Shown in pieces: positions 5,995 through 25,070 of a stretch of 64,000 nucleotides of DNA; within the stretch, counting starts at the first letter, position 1, and each line of letters begins with the position of its first letter. The notes beneath the pieces were generated by a model, which was not told the DNA's origin, searched no databases, and saw only the letters and a program-made list of their open reading frames with translations. The position numbers and the translations under genes were made by a program. The stretch is from NCBI RefSeq assembly GCF_003664325.1, contig NZ_RCDA01000003.1, positions 124,001-188,000 on the forward strand. Reading direction: 5' to 3'. Source of the DNA: Alkalispirillum mobile. Lineage in GTDB: Bacteria > Pseudomonadota > Gammaproteobacteria > Nitrococcales > Halorhodospiraceae.

Positions 5995-6190
5995 GCGGGG
6001 GCATCTCTTTCGGGTGGTCGGCTCATGCTGCGGTCCGGCATGCCGGCTTGACAGCCTCGGCCCTGCACAATACTGTGAAATCCATAAGTCTATGGTGCGG
6101 CGCGGCAATGGCATTGGTGAGCTCCCCCGCCGCTTCGGGTCAGTATACCGTAGTTACCCACCCGCATGATCCCGTCCGGAGTAATCCAGC

Positions 6191-6733
6191 ATGAGTGAAA
6201 CCCGCGTCATCAAGAAGTACCCCAACCGCCGTCTCTACGATACCGCCATCAGCAGTTACATCACCCTGGCGGACGTCAAGGGGCTGGTGCTTGATGGTGT
6301 GGATTTCCAGGTGGTTGACGCCAAGACCCGGCAGAACATCACCCGCAGCATCCTGCTGCAGATCATCTCCGAAGAGGAGGAGGGCGGCGAGCCCATTTTC
6401 AGCAGCGAACTGCTGGCCCAGCTGATCCGCGCCTACGGTGGCAACATGCAGAACGTGCTGACCAGCTACCTCGAGAAAAGCCTTGAGCTGTGGTTCGACC
6501 AGCAGCGCATGCTCCAGGAGCGCACCCGGACATTCATGGACCACAGCCCCATGAATGTGCTCACCCAGTTCGCCGAGCGCAATCTGTCCATGTGGCAGGC
6601 CATGAGCGGGCTGGAGCCGCACGGGCCGGGTGAGGGGGATGAGCAGGAAGCGCCGCAGCAGGGCAAGGGCAAGAGCGGGCCGGAAGGCGACAAGAACAAG
6701 CCCGGCGGTCAGTCCGGCCGCCGCAAGAGCTGA
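6191..6733 (+). CDS. phaR: Polyhydroxyalkanoate synthesis repressor PhaR
   Basis: About 180 residues. It begins with the highly conserved PHB/PHA DNA-binding domain (VIKKYPNRRLYDTAISSYIT, then LADVKGLVLDG and FQVVDAKTRQNITRSILLQI). A PHB-accumulation domain follows, then a charged low-complexity tail rich in Gly, Lys and Glu. PhaR represses phasin and PHA genes and is released by binding nascent PHA granules. It lies just upstream of phaB and in the same neighbourhood as phaE-phaC. Candidate PhaR operators at 6819-6835 and 7788-7804 support local control. The start has GGAGT about 9 bases upstream. Confidence 0.93.
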   Translation: MSETRVIKKYPNRRLYDTAISSYITLADVKGLVLDGVDFQVVDAKTRQNITRSILLQIISEEEEGGEPIFSSELLAQLIRAYGGNMQNVLTSYLEKSLELWFDQQRMLQERTRTFMDHSPMNVLTQFAERNLSMWQAMSGLEPHGPGEGDEQEAPQQGKGKSGPEGDKNKPGGQSGRRKS

Positions 6734-6774
6734 GGCGCCCGTCACAATAACGACCTGAATACCCGATCACCTGG

Positions 6775-6803
6775 TTGACACCCGGGGGATTCCCCCATAG
6801 TAT
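6775..6803 (+). promoter_or_regulatory. Sigma70-type promoter of phaB
   Basis: TTGACA at 6775-6780 is separated by exactly 17 bases from TAGTAT at 6798-6803. This is a near-consensus promoter about 120 bases ahead of phaB. The spacer holds a perfect GGGGGATTCCCCC inverted repeat (6784-6796), which could be an operator or a weak hairpin ending phaR transcripts. Confidence 0.75.
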
Positions 6804-6818
6804 CGCCTCACATTAGCG

Positions 6819-6835
6819 ATTGTGCGCCGCAACAC
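6819..6835 (+). promoter_or_regulatory. Candidate PhaR operator upstream of phaB
   Basis: ATTGTGCGCCGCAACAC is an imperfect inverted repeat with a TGC-N3-GCA core, 15 bases downstream of the -10 box. It matches the palindrome at 7788-7804 at 12 of 17 positions, with no gap. PhaR proteins are known to bind TGC/GCA-rich repeats. Assignment to PhaR is inference from position and core. Confidence 0.45.
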
Positions 6836-6921
6836 CGAGGCCTTGTCCTTTCCGGTCACACCGCTTTCGGGTGGGTTTGAGCGCGCCCACCCCCATTTTC
6901 TGATCTAAGAGGGGAACTGTC

Positions 6922-7668
6922 ATGGCAGAGCGCGTGGCACTTGTAACTGGCGGAAACGGCGGTATCGGCACCGAGATCTGTCGGCAACTGGGTCAGTCCG
7001 GTTACCGGGTCATCACCACCTGCCTGGACGCCGAGAAGGAGAACCTGGCCGGCTGGCAGGCGGAACTGAGCGCCGAGGGCGTGGACGCGGCGTACGTGGA
7101 GTGCGACGTGGCGGACTTCGCCAGCTGCGAGCGTATGGCGCGCCAGGTGGAAGAGGCCCACGGTCCGGTGGACGTGCTGGTCAACGTGGCCGGCATCACC
7201 AAGGACACCTTCCTCCACAAGATGGATGCCGAGGCCTGGAACGCGGTCATCAACGTCAACCTGAACAGCGTGTTCAACGTGACCCGGCAGTTCGTCGCCG
7301 GCATGCGCGAGCGCGGGTTCGGCCGCGTGATCAACATCTCCTCGGTGAATGGCCAGACCGGCCAGTTCGGCCAGGCCAACTACTCGGCGGCCAAGGCCGG
7401 CATGCACGGCTTCACCATGGCCCTGGCCAAGGAAGGGGCGCGCAAAGGTGTCACCGTCAACACGGTGTCCCCCGGTTACATCGCCACTTCCATGACGGCG
7501 GCCATGCCCGATGACGTGCGCGAGGCGATCGTCGGCCAGGTGCCCGCCGGCCGCATGGGTGAGCCCGGTGAGATTGCCCGGGTGGTGCGTTTCCTGGCCG
7601 CGGATGACTCCGGTTACATCACCGGTGCGAATATCCCGGTGAACGGCGGATTGTTCTGCAGCTTCTGA
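6922..7668 (+). CDS. phaB: Acetoacetyl-CoA reductase
   Basis: NADPH-dependent short-chain dehydrogenase that reduces acetoacetyl-CoA to (R)-3-hydroxybutyryl-CoA, the monomer for the PHA synthase. About 248 residues. It has the Rossmann motif VTGGNGGIG at residues 8-16, NVAGIT, the catalytic Ser in INISSVNGQ, and YSAAKAG with the active-site Tyr-Lys pair. The FGQANYSAAKAGMHGFTMAL stretch and the C-terminal ITGANIPVNGGLFCSF are typical of PhaB. GAGGGG lies 7 bases before the ATG. It sits between phaR and the non-coding pha interval. No phaA thiolase is in the window. Confidence 0.93.
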   Translation: MAERVALVTGGNGGIGTEICRQLGQSGYRVITTCLDAEKENLAGWQAELSAEGVDAAYVECDVADFASCERMARQVEEAHGPVDVLVNVAGITKDTFLHKMDAEAWNAVINVNLNSVFNVTRQFVAGMRERGFGRVINISSVNGQTGQFGQANYSAAKAGMHGFTMALAKEGARKGVTVNTVSPGYIATSMTAAMPDDVREAIVGQVPAGRMGEPGEIARVVRFLAADDSGYITGANIPVNGGLFCSF

Positions 7669-7684
7669 TTCTGATCGCGTAGGG

Positions 7685-7718
7685 CGCAGGGCACCGCCGC
7701 ATCAGGTCGTGCCCTGCG
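7685..7718 (+). terminator. Hairpin after phaB (no T-run)
   Basis: A perfect 10-base inverted repeat, CGCAGGGCAC (7685-7694) and GTGCCCTGCG (7709-7718), starts 17 bases after the phaB stop. No T-tract follows. It may stabilise the mRNA 3' end or help factor-dependent termination. Confidence 0.5.
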
Positions 7719-7760
7719 GAACCTCGATCAGCGGGATCGGTCAAACCAATTGACCTGGCG

Positions 7761-7789
7761 TTGACAAACTGAATGGCTGGTCATAGAAT
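7761..7789 (+). promoter_or_regulatory. Strong sigma70 promoter inside the pha intergenic region
   Basis: TTGACA at 7761-7766, 17-base spacer, TAGAAT at 7784-7789. No protein gene follows on this strand before the terminator at 8008, so the promoter most likely drives a non-coding RNA. A perfect palindrome overlaps the -10 box and the likely start site. Confidence 0.72.
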
Positions 7790-7804
7790 GTTGCACAGCA
7801 ACAT
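7788..7804 (+). promoter_or_regulatory. Candidate PhaR operator overlapping the -10 box
   Basis: ATGTTGCACAGCAACAT is a perfect 7+3+7 palindrome. It covers the last -10 bases and the expected transcription start, a classic repressor position. The TTGC-N3-GCAA core fits the TGC/GCA-rich sites described for PhaR. The same core occurs upstream of phaB. A 5' hairpin of the transcript is an alternative reading. Confidence 0.5.
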
Positions 7805-8008
7805 CGGACAGGCAAAAAATTAGGGAGCGGTGGCGGCTCCCCGGCGGTAAGTAGGCGCTGTTATGGCCCGTTCGATGACAGGCGGCTTGTTGTAACGCCT
7901 TGGCAAGGACTGCTTTTTATAGTTGTTAGTCGGTCTCCTCCTGGCGGCGCGTATCCTAGGTAAACGTCGCCTTCCTCTTGCCCCCTCTCTCATGAGGGGG
8001 TTTTTTTT
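7797..8008 (+). ncRNA. Candidate sRNA of the pha locus, about 210 nt
   Basis: The interval 7669-8182 has no convincing protein gene. A near-consensus promoter predicts a start near 7797, and an intrinsic terminator ends at 8008. The transcript would contain two A-N-GGA elements (AGGGA near 7825, AAGGA near 7905), a GGAGC/GCTCC-type hairpin near 7824-7838, and one 10-codon frame at 7863-7895 preceded by AAGTAGG. I do not recognise it as 6S, tmRNA, RNase P or another known RNA. A leader peptide or a very small protein cannot be excluded. Confidence 0.5.
7981..8008 (+). terminator. Intrinsic terminator of the pha-locus transcript
   Basis: CCCCCTC (7981-7987), a 6-base loop, GAGGGGG (7994-8000), then eight T (8001-8008). 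This is a textbook Rho-independent terminator on the plus strand. It has no protein gene immediately upstream. Confidence 0.85.
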
Positions 8009-8182
8009 GTCCTGCTTTTACGCCGACTGGGTCGCTCTGCGGCAATTTGTCCCAACGGCGTAATGTGGGCCATTGTAGTTAGGTCGACAGACATGGCAAG
8101 CACTTTCGTTGACGCGCCGCATCATGAGTGCTCCGTCATAAGGGACTGTCCTGCCGAAATTTTCCCCATCCTGACGCTTGGT

Positions 8183-9274
8183 TTATCGCCGCGCTGGCGA
8201 GGGCAGGGGCTGGGCCAGCCACTGCCAGAGCCGCTGGTGCAGGCCCTGGCGCGCCTTTCGACTCAGCATGACCCCCAGGTGGCCGCCGGGGATCGCCTCT
8301 TCCTGGTAGTCCACGGCGGCCGGTAGCAGTCGGGCCAGTGCTGCGGCAGCGGCGGCCGGTACCAAATGGTCCCGGGTTGCGTAGGCGTTGTAGACGGGGT
8401 GGTGCAGGCGCGAGAGGTCCACCGGTCGTTCGCCAATCCGCAGCCGGCCCCGGGTCAAGGCGTTGTCCTGGTAAAACGCGCGCACGAACTCCAGGAAGAC
8501 CTGCCCGCCCAGGTCGGGGCTGTCGTACATCCAGCGCTCCATGCGCAGGAACTCCCGCAGCGCGTCGGGCCGTGCCCGCAGCTGCGGCAGCTGCTCAAGA
8601 TAACGGCGCGAGAGCAACTCCGCCGGTTTCAGGCTGATGAAGACCAAGTTGAGCAGGTCGGCGGGAATGTTGCCCAGGGTTTCCACCGCCAGGTCCAGCT
8701 GGAGGTCGCGGGCCAGCCCGCTCAGGGTGTCCTCCGGGGTGTGGAAGTCCACCGGTGTGGCCAGTGTGGCAATGCGACCCACCCGCGCCGGCTCAAGGGC
8801 CGCATAGCAGAGGGCGAAGGTGCCCCCCTGGCAGACCCCCAGCAGGTCCACAGGCTGCCCCTGGTAGCGCTTGCTGAGCTCGACGATGGCCTGGTGCAGG
8901 GTGTCGTTCAGGTAATCATCGAGGCCGAGAAAACGGTCCGCGGGCTCCGGGCGGCCCCAGTCCAGCAGGTAAACGGGTAGGCCGGCGTCACGGGCGCTGC
9001 GGATCATCGAGCGCTGCGGGGAGAGATCCAGCAGGTAGGGTCGGTTGACCAACGAGTAGAGGACCAGCAGGGGGCGTTTGCCGGTGGTCGGTGCGCTGCC
9101 CTCCGGCTCCGAGGGATAGTGGTACAGAGTGGCCGGTGGCAGTTCTCGCACCACCTGGCGCGGGGTCTCGCCCACGGGGACTGGCTGCAACGCCGCGCAT
9201 TCGCGAAGGGCGGCCTTCAGGGCCTCTTGGTTTGGGTGTGGCCCCTGACTGCCCGGGGAGTCAGCAGCGGTCAC
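8183..9274 (-). CDS. phaC: Class III PHA synthase subunit PhaC
   Basis: Catalytic subunit that polymerises (R)-3-hydroxyacyl-CoA on the granule surface. At 363 residues it has class III size (class I and II enzymes are near 560-600). Alpha/beta-hydrolase fold: VYLLDWGRPEPADR, the lipase-like box LLGVCQGG with catalytic Cys near residue 148, the Asp in NAYATRDHLVP and the His in IPGGHLGVM. It is the distal gene of phaE-phaC. Its ATG overlaps the phaE stop by four bases, which indicates translational coupling and fits the obligate PhaE-PhaC complex. Confidence 0.95.
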   Translation of the reverse strand: MTAADSPGSQGPHPNQEALKAALRECAALQPVPVGETPRQVVRELPPATLYHYPSEPEGSAPTTGKRPLLVLYSLVNRPYLLDLSPQRSMIRSARDAGLPVYLLDWGRPEPADRFLGLDDYLNDTLHQAIVELSKRYQGQPVDLLGVCQGGTFALCYAALEPARVGRIATLATPVDFHTPEDTLSGLARDLQLDLAVETLGNIPADLLNLVFISLKPAELLSRRYLEQLPQLRARPDALREFLRMERWMYDSPDLGGQVFLEFVRAFYQDNALTRGRLRIGERPVDLSRLHHPVYNAYATRDHLVPAAAAAALARLLPAAVDYQEEAIPGGHLGVMLSRKARQGLHQRLWQWLAQPLPSPARR

Positions 9275-10149
9275 GCGCCACGCCCCCCTTGGCTCTGCTG
9301 TTCCGAGGCCGCCTTCAGCCGGCGCACCTCTTCACGCAGGCTGCGGACCTCGTCCCGCAGACCGGCCACGTCTGCGTCCATCTCGGTGGCGAGCGCGCGG
9401 TGCGCCCGGCGTAGCTCGTGCAAGCGCCTCTGGGTGCTCTGCAGGCCGCGGCGTGTGGGCAGGTCCAGCAGCCCCAGCCAATGGTCAAGGTGGGTCTGCA
9501 GCGATCGGGTGTAGGCCAGACCGGCGTTGCTCACCGAGGCGAAGGCCTGTCGGTATGCCGTGGTGGCGATACGTGCTTCCCAGGCCTGCTCGGCCGCCTC
9601 CAGGTAGCGCGCTTCCAGCTGGTGCAGGTCGATAGCTTCGAGGGGCGTTGTGGCCAGGTTGTCCACCAGCCGGTCCAGGGCCTCCAGGGCCGACTGGCGG
9701 ACCTGCTTCGTGTAGTCGGCCAGGGCGGCCTGGTAGTCCAGTCCGGCCTCGATGAGTTGCTGTTGCCGGGCCTGCTGCTCATGCCACGGGCCCAGGCGGG
9801 CGCTCACCAGGTCCAGCCAGGGCCGAAGCCAGGCGGGCGGTGGGCTGGCATCGTCTGGCCCACCCGGCTGCATGGCCTGGTGCAGGGGGCGGGCCCAGTC
9901 CAGGGTGCGGGTGAACTGCTGGAAGGTCTGGTCCAGCTGGGCCCGGAGCGGCGCCAGGGCCTGGTGCATTGCGGCGGGGTCGGGGGTGCGCTCCCGGGCG
10001 GCCGCCTCGCGAACGACTTCGAGCAGCGGGGCGAGCTGCTGGCCGATCAGCAACTCATTGGTAGTGGTCCAGAACGCACGGAAGGGGCCCCGGACGGCAT
10101 CCGTCCAGGCGCGCCATTCGTTTCCGGTTTGATCCCCGTGTTCAGACAC
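9271..10149 (-). CDS. phaE: Class III PHA synthase subunit PhaE
   Basis: Non-catalytic partner that activates PhaC in class III synthases. About 292 residues from the GTG at 10149 (VSEHGDQTGNEWRAW); the frame is open to an ATG at 10188. The protein is mostly helical, with an aromatic-rich core and a C-terminal coiled coil (LATEMDADVAGLRDEVRSL onward, followed by EEVRRLKAASEQ) typical of PhaE. It overlaps phaC by four bases and is first in the minus-strand pair. The GTG start has GGG elements upstream but is not certain. Confidence 0.9.
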   Translation of the reverse strand: MSEHGDQTGNEWRAWTDAVRGPFRAFWTTTNELLIGQQLAPLLEVVREAAARERTPDPAAMHQALAPLRAQLDQTFQQFTRTLDWARPLHQAMQPGGPDDASPPPAWLRPWLDLVSARLGPWHEQQARQQQLIEAGLDYQAALADYTKQVRQSALEALDRLVDNLATTPLEAIDLHQLEARYLEAAEQAWEARIATTAYRQAFASVSNAGLAYTRSLQTHLDHWLGLLDLPTRRGLQSTQRRLHELRRAHRALATEMDADVAGLRDEVRSLREEVRRLKAASEQQSQGGRGA

Positions 10150-10227
10150 TTTGCCCACATCCCCTGTTATGCGGCACCAGTCTACCACCCCTGCGGCACG
10201 GGGTAAGGGCGGCGGGTGGATAACAGG

Positions 10228-11682
10228 CTAGCGGTCGGCGGCCTGGCGCTGCCAATCGCTCTGCAGGGCTGCAGCGCGGGATTGCTGGTAGTGATCCGCT
10301 TCCGGGTGGCGTTCCACCTCGCGCAACTGCCCCAGGGCGCTGCTCAGGTCCCCCAGCTGGTGGTAATAGCGGGCCATCGCCAGGTGGGCGTCCACCGGTC
10401 GGCCGGCCTCGCTGGCGGCCTCGGCCAGACGGCGTTTCAGCTCCGGGTGGCCGGGGTGGCTGCGCACGGCGCGGGTGAGCACCTGCCGCGCCTCGCCGGG
10501 GCGGTCAGCGGCCATCAGCGCCTCCGCCCGGTAGGTTGGAATGGCCCGGTTGCCGGGGAACAACTCCTGGGCCTGTTCGTAGGTCTTGATGGCGGCCTCC
10601 AGTTCGCCAGCCTCTTGGCGCAGGCGCCCCATTGCCAGGTGCCAGGCCGGTTGGCTCCCCAGGGTTTCCTCCAACTGCTCCAGCAGGGCTTCGGCCTCAT
10701 CGAACTGGCGGTCTCGGATCAATGCCAGCGCCAGCCCGTAACGGGCCCCCTCCTGCTCCGCGCCCCCGGTCTGTTCCGTCCGGGCGCGGAACTGCTCCAC
10801 GGCCTCCCGGGCGTCGTTGATTGCCTGGACGCGCAGGCGCGCCTGGATCAGGTGGAACTGGCCGCTCTCCAGTGGCTCTCCCGTTTCGTATGCCTCGGCG
10901 CGGGCGCGGGACTCGGAGACGCGGTTTTCGGTCAACGGGTGGGTGCTGAGGTACTCGGGCGCGCGTTCGCGGTAGCGGCTGGCCTCCAGCAGGCGCTCAA
11001 AGAAGCCGGGCATGCCTTGTGGGTCCAGCCCGGAACGCGCGAGGATGCGCAGACCGACCCGGTCGGCCTCGCGCTCGAAGGCGCGGGAGTAATTGAGCTG
11101 CTGTTGCAGGGTGCCACCCAGGCCGGCCATGGCCGCGGCGCTGCCCGCCTGTGGGTCGTAGGCGCCGATCAACACGGCGGCCAGCAGGCTCGCCGCGGTC
11201 TGCAGGTTCAGGCGCCGGGCTGTGGCATAGTGGCGGGCGATATGGCGCTGGGTGACGTGGGCGATCTCGTGCGCCATTACGGCGGCGAGCTCGCTCTCGG
11301 TGCGGGCGGCGTCGATCAGGCCGGTGTTGATGCCGATATAGCCGCCGGGCATCGCGAAGGCGTTGATATTGTCGTCTTCGACCAGGAAGAACGTGTATTG
11401 CAGCCCCGGCATATCGCTGTGGGCCGCGAGCCGCTGGCCGAGCTCCTCGACGTAAGCGGTGAGCTCCGGGTCGTCGGAGAGCGGGATGTGGCGGCGCAAC
11501 TGGCGCATCAACTCATCGCCGATCTCCTGCTCCTCGGCCTGGGACAGCGCCTGGGAGGCCGGGTCGCCGAGGTCGGGCAGGCGCAGGTCATCGCCCGCCT
11601 TCGCCGGGCTGAAGCTGACGAGCAGCACTATCACCGCGAGCAGGGCGACGAATGGGTACAGCAGGGGCGTGCGTATCTTCAT
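10228..11682 (-). CDS. bepA: BepA-like periplasmic M48 metalloprotease with TPRs
   Basis: Envelope quality-control protease/chaperone that acts with the BAM complex on LptD and other outer-membrane proteins. About 484 residues from ATG 11682, starting with a signal peptide (KIRTPLLYPFVALLAVIVLL, cleavage near PAKA-GDD). The M48 domain has the zinc motif HEIAH near residues 138-142 and the third-ligand region FEREADRVG. From about residue 300 there are TPR-like helices (QFDEAEALLEQLEE, ELEAAIKTYEQAQELFPGN). Length and layout match BepA/YfgC. The longer frame to 11724 lacks a plausible signal sequence. Confidence 0.88.
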   Translation of the reverse strand: MKIRTPLLYPFVALLAVIVLLVSFSPAKAGDDLRLPDLGDPASQALSQAEEQEIGDELMRQLRRHIPLSDDPELTAYVEELGQRLAAHSDMPGLQYTFFLVEDDNINAFAMPGGYIGINTGLIDAARTESELAAVMAHEIAHVTQRHIARHYATARRLNLQTAASLLAAVLIGAYDPQAGSAAAMAGLGGTLQQQLNYSRAFEREADRVGLRILARSGLDPQGMPGFFERLLEASRYRERAPEYLSTHPLTENRVSESRARAEAYETGEPLESGQFHLIQARLRVQAINDAREAVEQFRARTEQTGGAEQEGARYGLALALIRDRQFDEAEALLEQLEETLGSQPAWHLAMGRLRQEAGELEAAIKTYEQAQELFPGNRAIPTYRAEALMAADRPGEARQVLTRAVRSHPGHPELKRRLAEAASEAGRPVDAHLAMARYYHQLGDLSSALGQLREVERHPEADHYQQSRAAALQSDWQRQAADR

Positions 11683-23567: not shown

Positions 23568-25070
23568 ATGACTACAAATATTGAGAAACAGTACAGGGGG
23601 GCATCGCCTGGTGCGCCCAGTCAATATCGAGCTGCCTCAGCGCGTCAGCGCATGGAACGTTTGGTTGAGCCGGGCACCCTGCAGGGCTTGCCCGAAGAGG
23701 TGCGCGTCGAGTTCAACAGTAATGATGGCGTGCTGGTCGGCGTGGGTGAGATTGACGGCAGTCGGGTTTTTCTTGCCGCCCAGAACAGCAGTTGCCGCGG
23801 GGGGTCGTTTGGCGAGACCCACGCTGCGCGTGTGAAAGGCATGCTGGAAGCGGCGCAATGGGCAGCACCGGATGCGGTGCTGCTGCTCCTGGACTCCGGC
23901 GGCGTGCGTCTGGAGGAAGCCGAATCGGCCATGCTGGGGGCAGCCGAGATCGTTCGCGGGATCCAAGAACTGCGCGCGGCCGGCATCCCCGTGCTCGCCG
24001 TGGTTGGGGGCCAACTCGGTTGTTTCGGTGCGGCTGCTCTGGTGGCCCGCAGTGCGGATCGAGTGGTCATGGTCGAGGGGGCCCGTTTTGGCACCTCAGG
24101 CATTCGGGTCATGGATGTCATGGCTGATGGAGGTGCCGGACTCACATCGCACCAGCGGGAGGTGTTGGAAATGGCCGTTGCGGCCAGCAGCCGGGTCGCT
24201 ACCGGTGAGGCCGATGCCGTTGTCGTGGATGATGTCTTGGCGGTTCGAGGGGCCATTATCCAGTACTTGGATGACTACCAGCCGCCCGGCGTCGAGGATC
24301 TGAAGACGACTCAGGCCCTTCTGCAAACGAGGCTGCCAGGTGCCAAGCCGGAACAACGGGGCGTTTTCAAAGCCCTCCAGAACGACTTGGACCGCCTGTT
24401 TCCCAACGGCTTGGTGGTTGCCGAGCATGATGGGCTGGTTCAGGGCAGCGGGGTCAGGACCTGTGGCGAGGAGGTCCGGATATTGGGGTTCGTCTCCGGA
24501 CGCCCGGCCGGCTTCGTGCAGGTGGTCCGATTGGCCCAGGAACTGCTGGCCACTATGACGCATGATTCCGGGCGGTCTATTCTGCTTCTCGCTGACGCCG
24601 AGCAGGCCTTTAGCGTTGAGAATGAGCAGCGAGGCTTTGCGCTGGCCCTCGCGCACCTTGCGGCGGTGATCGCCCATGCCCGTACCCGTGGGCATCGGGT
24701 GATCGCACTGCTGCGTGAGAGTGGCTGGGGTGCCAGTTTTATTGCCTCAGCCATGATGGCGGATGAACTGTATGCCCTGAAGGGCGCCCGCATCCGTGCC
24801 CTGCCAGAGAAGGCAGTAGCCTTGTTTGCGCCGCAAAGCCTGGGCGAGCGAGGTGATGGCAGCCTGGCTCTGGAGCGATTCTGCCACCTGGGGGCTGTGG
24901 ACACTATCTGGGACCGCTGTTTGAGCCGCTATCTCAACGCCGGACTGGCTGGGCTGCGGCAGTCGGACCGGCGCCGACTGCGTGGGGCGCAGCGCTGTGG
25001 TCGTACCGCACCCCTTGCCGTGTGTGATCGCGTGGCTTGTGACCTCATGGAGTCCTTTCACGCGAAATAA
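23568..25070 (+). CDS. Fused MdcD-MdcE-like carboxyltransferase (orphan)
   Basis: About 500 residues. Residues 20-240 resemble the beta subunit of biotin-independent malonate decarboxylase: SARQRMERL, RGGSFGETHAARVKG, LLLLDSGGVRLEEAES, AVVGGQLGCFGAAALVA. Residues 260-480 resemble the gamma subunit, ending FCHLGAVDTIWDRCLSRYL. In known systems the two subunits form a crotonase-fold pair that decarboxylates malonyl on the ACP-like MdcC. No mdcA, mdcC, mdcB, mdcG or mdcH lies in the window, so substrate and carrier are unknown. Start at ATG 23568 behind GGGAGGAG. It sits first in the island and converges on the regulator gene. Confidence 0.72.
   Translation: MTTNIEKQYRGASPGAPSQYRAASARQRMERLVEPGTLQGLPEEVRVEFNSNDGVLVGVGEIDGSRVFLAAQNSSCRGGSFGETHAARVKGMLEAAQWAAPDAVLLLLDSGGVRLEEAESAMLGAAEIVRGIQELRAAGIPVLAVVGGQLGCFGAAALVARSADRVVMVEGARFGTSGIRVMDVMADGGAGLTSHQREVLEMAVAASSRVATGEADAVVVDDVLAVRGAIIQYLDDYQPPGVEDLKTTQALLQTRLPGAKPEQRGVFKALQNDLDRLFPNGLVVAEHDGLVQGSGVRTCGEEVRILGFVSGRPAGFVQVVRLAQELLATMTHDSGRSILLLADAEQAFSVENEQRGFALALAHLAAVIAHARTRGHRVIALLRESGWGASFIASAMMADELYALKGARIRALPEKAVALFAPQSLGERGDGSLALERFCHLGAVDTIWDRCLSRYLNAGLAGLRQSDRRRLRGAQRCGRTAPLAVCDRVACDLMESFHAK

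Follow-up and report, generated by a model that had tools for sequence, protein, structure and literature searches.

A conserved candidate small RNA gene faced by a promoter with a PhaR-type operator between phaB and phaC of Alkalispirillum mobile

To our knowledge, small RNAs linked to PHB are known chiefly from the rhizobial MmgR. Two reports describe MmgR of Sinorhizobium meliloti (alpha-r8; Rfam family RF00519, suhB) as PHB-linked and repressed by PhaR (PMC12542648, PMC8401924), and by function it is the closest known system to the RNA considered here. According to the first report, the PhaR motif has the core YGCRNYGCR, the Rhodobacter sphaeroides site CTGCNNNGCAG is looser with no rule for its centre, and PhaR of other bacteria is sequestered by PHB, leaving the DNA when granules form (PMC12542648). 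Like MmgR (PMC12542648, PMC8401924), the predicted RNA of A. mobile has a CU-rich segment ahead of its terminator and a proposed tie to PHB storage; MmgR has a PhaR-type site in its promoter, where the RNA of A. mobile has a palindrome with the PhaR core TGCnnnGCA but no RNY centre. The new RNA differs in length (about 212 nt as compared to 77 nt), in bacterial class and in lying within the pha locus; moreover, it faces a convergent antisense promoter, of which the accessible parts of the same reports make no mention. Two further families, anti-hemB (RF02837) and the Betaproteobacteria toxic sRNA (RF02278), likewise combine a CU-rich, CUCC-type segment with a hairpin and a terminator, but no PHA link for them was found in PMC5688073.

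We analysed a stretch of 64,000 nucleotides of the A. mobile genome, hereafter the window, to which all coordinates refer. Curated family models place phaR (6191-6733) and phaB (6922-7668) on the plus strand, and phaC (8183-9274) and phaE (9271-10188) on the minus strand, with PhaC and PhaE being the best-matching families, yet scoring under those models' own cut-offs. The last base of phaB is 7668, and phaC is read towards it from the opposite strand, so that the two genes converge on a gap of 514 bases, the interval in which an earlier note on this DNA had proposed a near-consensus promoter with a perfect palindrome at the start site, a textbook terminator and a transcript of roughly 210 nt. 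These elements were all recovered. The sigma-70-type promoter TTGACA-17-TAGAAT (7761-7789, plus strand) matches at 11 of 12 positions, and the region 6000-11000 contains four promoter-like sites of this kind against 0.5 expected. The palindrome TGTTGCACAGCAACA (7789-7803), free of mismatches, abuts the -10 box and the start site, and a sequence scan located an intrinsic terminator, GCCCCCTCTCTCATGAGGGGGT followed by T7, at 7980-8008 on the plus strand. Promoter and terminator together predict a plus-strand RNA of about 212 nt (7797-8008), whose homologs of 109-238 nt are found across the order. Just past phaB, the window also carries a perfect 10-bp inverted repeat (CGCAGGGCAC/GTGCCCTGCG, 7685-7718) without a T-run, possibly the end of the phaB mRNA.

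Conservation was assessed in two ways. A DNA search with 7741-8015 in 59 genomes gave matches, some of them weak, in A. mobile itself and 26 others (27 in all), and nearly all readable loci place them between phaB and phaC. For the survey, loci were anchored on phaB, so that the RNA itself did not select them; the order is represented by 54 genomes, 48 of which have a phaB ortholog, and the surveyed set comprised 48 loci, 47 reached via phaB and one extra via phaC. The interval proved conserved: the CTCCTCC core was found in 43 of 48 loci, the five without it belonging to the f5 clade, and a plus-strand promoter of at least 9/12 in 25 of the surveyed loci (25 of the 43 homologous ones). In 24 of these 25, a palindrome YTGCNNNGCAR starts at an offset of -2 to +2 relative to where the -10 box ends. 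The plus-strand terminator is retained in all 11 loci of clade f1 and all 11 of clade f2. The location beside phaB, phaR and phaC is maintained across the order, and a plasmid collection yielded no match to the element. In several genomes of the f2 and f5 clades (loci L009, L012, L013, L007, L011, L015 and L190), an inverted repeat like CTTACTnnTAnGTAAG lies about 20-60 bases upstream of the -35 box, perhaps as an operator for another regulator; at 7739-7755 the window carries GGTCAAACCAATTGACC in its place.

The RNA is predicted to expose an anti-Shine-Dalgarno seed, CUCCUCC (7935-7941, plus strand), with an unpaired probability of 0.69 in A. mobile and a mean of 0.70 in 25 homologs, as compared to 0.40 for the whole RNA. 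Behind it follows hairpin 3 (GGCGGCG..CGUCGCC, 7943-7971), in which three of eight pairs changed on both sides (UA/AU, GC/AU/UA and GU/AU/GC). With the 3' part aligned, its covariation score was reached by 0 of 500 shuffles and by none of the slid controls. At pair 16-45 (GU in 8, AU in 7 and GC in 3 cases), G-U would become A-C on the opposite strand, which favours folding of the plus strand. Covariation was also seen, in 29 genomes, in a long-range helix (GCGCTC..GAGCGC); in A. mobile this helix, H2, was not found in that form. Mean folding z-scores over 43 loci were -2.75 for the plus and -2.95 for the minus strand (difference +0.31). A covariance model built from 19 sequences recovered loci of the order outside its training set, such as one from clade f3 at an E-value of 2e-7, and gave no match on three loci lacking the motif. 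As the single-transcript fold is weak (MFE z-score -1.48), it is the comparative data, namely 25 plus-strand promoters, 24 palindromes in fixed position and the covariation, that argue against a chance origin. We are confident that the gap holds a real, conserved and hitherto uncatalogued small RNA gene of about 212 nt, which would found a new family.

A second set of signals, absent from the earlier note, is conserved on the opposite strand and makes the presence of a facing antisense promoter probable. The sequence TTGCCA-16-TACAAT (8072-8099, read 8099-8072 on the minus strand; 10/12) belongs to a block that 33 of the 48 loci retain, or 31 of 43 by a second criterion. Sequence comparison places a PhaR-type operator, TGCGGCGCG, and a conserved CGAAAGTGC element directly upstream (8100-8121, minus strand), and the block TGNTGCGNCGCARCA-WCGAAAGTGC ahead of the minus promoter is conserved, with hardly any variation in layout, in 33 of the 48 loci. 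Hairpin 1 (GGGGAGC..GCTCCCT AA TTTTTT, 7814-7842, read 7842-7814) forms an intrinsic terminator on the minus strand, found in 33 of 43 loci; on the plus strand the same bases give a hairpin preceded by an A-run. Between the minus promoter and this terminator, an antisense RNA of about 251 nt (7814-8065) would be transcribed, overlapping the whole small RNA. Clades differ in what they keep. All 11 f1 loci have the plus promoter and terminator, and only the A. mobile locus among them the minus promoter, so that both signal sets occur in its own genome; the f2 loci have plus signals and minus promoter throughout (11/11 each); and in the f5 genus g10 the plus signals are absent (0/12), with the minus promoter in 11 and the minus terminator in 12 of 12. 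In twelve small-genome f5 species we found neither plus promoter nor plus terminator, and the plus-strand RNA is therefore not universal. According to this tally, two convergent RNA genes appear to occupy one stretch of DNA, with lineages keeping one or both.

Which of the two promoters PhaR might recognize was addressed through the phasin genes. A. mobile has four above the family cut-off, and in the roughly 112 bases upstream of each stands a copy of TGYTGCnnnGCARCA with no more than one mismatch, the genome containing 111 such sites in 2.95 Mb; the phasin sites overlap -35 and -10. Among 12 relatives, TGCnnnGCA precedes 28 of 30 phasin genes, mostly as two copies 27 bases apart, compared to 8.6% of background windows. 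The palindrome at the small RNA start shares this TGCnnnGCA core, and the second phasin copy likewise overlaps the -10 box. The centres, however, fall into distinct classes: RNY accounts for 46 of the 50 phasin operators and for 32 of 32 operators at the minus promoter, but for 0 of 24 start-site palindromes, 23 of which have RNR. Accordingly, the minus-promoter sites, including the A. mobile copy, conform to the published core YGCRNYGCR, whereas the plus-strand palindrome with its ACA centre does not. Since RNY occurs in 32/32 versus 0/24, we assign PhaR, with some confidence, to the minus promoter, where it would act, and leave the plus-strand palindrome aside; PhaR may bind the latter more weakly or in a modified form of its site, or another factor may bind there. 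The proposal of the earlier note that PhaR controls the small RNA is thus partly supported, the start-site palindrome having the core but the canonical operator lying at the opposite promoter, and the likeness it saw to a palindrome before phaB extends to TGCnnnGCA but not to the centres.

Having its own promoter, a U-tailed intrinsic terminator and an exposed seed, the predicted RNA has the layout of Hfq-type small RNAs, and hfq is encoded in the same genome. This combination suggests blocking of translation, and we lean slightly towards an anti-Shine-Dalgarno mechanism, probably an Hfq-assisted pairing with ribosome-binding sites. The 7761-7789 promoter would give rise to a noncoding RNA of about 212 nt ended by its own terminator, which would present an unpaired CUCCUCC, followed by the conserved hairpin and the U-tail, in the manner of a trans-acting RNA, most likely blocking the ribosome-binding sites of mRNAs for carbon and PHA metabolism. 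The facing promoter with its canonical PhaR-type operator would send an antisense RNA through the small RNA up to hairpin 1. Given the complete overlap, this antisense RNA may titrate or destroy the small RNA, or interfere with its transcription. Because PhaR leaves the DNA on PHB granule formation, the pair would couple the level of the small RNA to the storage state, a control by PHB that we regard as fairly likely. A role in carbon storage, as the earlier note had suggested, agrees with the conserved location in the pha locus. Phasin start regions rank no higher than other genes in a simple pairing scan. A malonate decarboxylase-like gene at 23568 is among the best matches in the window at -31.0 kcal/mol, too weak a pairing to propose it as a target. 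Taken as a whole, an anti-Shine-Dalgarno small RNA with a PhaR-linked antisense partner is the explanation we moderately favour; the signals, their conservation, the covariation and the operator classes are observed, and from them we infer transcription, PhaR binding, Hfq use, targets and antisense effect. More tentative is an extended form, in which two convergent small RNAs, sense and antisense, would both have a conserved promoter and terminator of their own. PhaR, as a granule-sensing repressor, would then act at the antisense promoter, and perhaps at the sense one too, PHB content would set the balance between the anti-Shine-Dalgarno RNA and its antisense partner, and lineages would have kept one or the other.

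Among the competing explanations, the strongest exchanges the roles of the two strands: function would lie in the minus-strand RNA, or at least equally there, and the plus-strand RNA would be its lineage-specific antisense partner. The conserved promoter block with its nearly fixed -35/-10 spacing and canonical operator speaks for it, as do the g10 genomes that keep minus signals only, and three genomes in which the long-range helix has A-C on the plus and G-U on the minus strand. Still, the minus promoter is missing from 10 of the 11 f1 loci, which retain a strong plus promoter and terminator, hairpin 3 has its G-U pairs on the plus strand, and in the minus RNA the complementary GGAGGAG is not predicted to be exposed (0.40 versus 0.45). 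We consider this exchange unlikely. A minus-strand CsrA sponge found no support either, with a GGA count of 5.4 against 4.3 expected and the motif not exposed. It is less probable again that the gap holds no trans-acting RNA, and only the terminators and 3' UTR structures with which the two convergent operons, of phaB and of phaC, end. Two 3' ends do flank the gap, hairpin 1 terminates on the minus and 7980-8008 on the plus strand, and the g10 genomes show no plus promoter; however, termination would need neither the dedicated -35 and -10 boxes, accompanied in 24 loci by a palindrome in fixed position, nor an exposed CUCCUCC, nor a covarying hairpin 3, and phaB has its own inverted repeat at 7685-7718.

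It appears highly improbable that the RNA belongs, even distantly, to the mmgR family of alphaproteobacteria (alpha-r8, Rfam suhB). In line with the earlier note, which had recognized no known RNA, an Rfam search at curated thresholds matched no family. The suhB/mmgR model (RF00519) reached 21 bits (E 0.068 in a 651-base search) and at most 22.9 in homologs, such weak matches recurring among them, and MmgR is PHB-linked and PhaR-repressed (PMC12542648). The gathering score of 41 was nonetheless never attained, and the predicted 212 nt and the 109-238 nt of the homologs exceed the roughly 77 nt of the family. Furthermore, anti-hemB scores as high or higher in many homologs (19.4 bits in the window, best homolog 28.7, cut-off 49.5), and the Betaproteobacteria toxic sRNA gave 17.7 bits, with a best homolog of 25.6 and a cut-off of 50. 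Weak matches to all three families recur among homologs, those to anti-hemB and the toxic sRNA on the strand of the small RNA; what these families share with it is anatomy rather than a demonstrated descent. A description of the new RNA was not found in the open literature, subscription journals being mostly outside that search. Finally, a small protein encoded in the gap can practically be dismissed, as had been claimed before, since its short ORFs (57, 46 and 87 aa) had no match in the family library and, in six frames around the core, homologs have median ORFs of 17-45 aa with no frame open in all and none long in most.

Related units were also seen elsewhere. L190 (genome G016) has two tandem copies of the 3' part of the small RNA behind phaB (1659-1718 and 1995-2054), the first copy having its own promoter-like start and a terminator but no hairpin 1. 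In A. mobile, a second match to the model (34 bits; L263, about 2010-2076, G000:C1:719617-719674) lies at the 3' end of an unidentified ORF and comprises CTCTCCTCC, a hairpin and a terminator. A class-wide model search returned a locus beside phaR in the distant gammaproteobacterium G223 and several loci without pha genes nearby. In the former (L271, about 1450-1600), a similar unit with the start palindrome TGCAACGCA stands directly downstream of phaR. On the minus strand of L273 (G280, about 535-730), CUCCUCC, hairpin and terminator follow an ORF of 133 aa whose product appears phasin-like on visual inspection. Intergenic units at L235, L236 and L237 (G190, G398 and G302) combine a promoter, UCUCCUCCUGAAAGGAC..GUCCUUUCACGCACUU and a terminator with no pha genes within about 1.5 kb, and perhaps represent a wider small RNA family in the class.

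If the favoured explanation, a small RNA paired with a PhaR-linked antisense partner, is true, RNA control of carbon storage would extend to another class, the gammaproteobacteria, including Halorhodospira, Aquisalimonas and Methylonatrum. The PhaR-type operator at the facing promoter would make a circuit leading from polymer content to the RNA pair directly testable, and such a polymer-linked RNA pair may be of use in bioplastic engineering.
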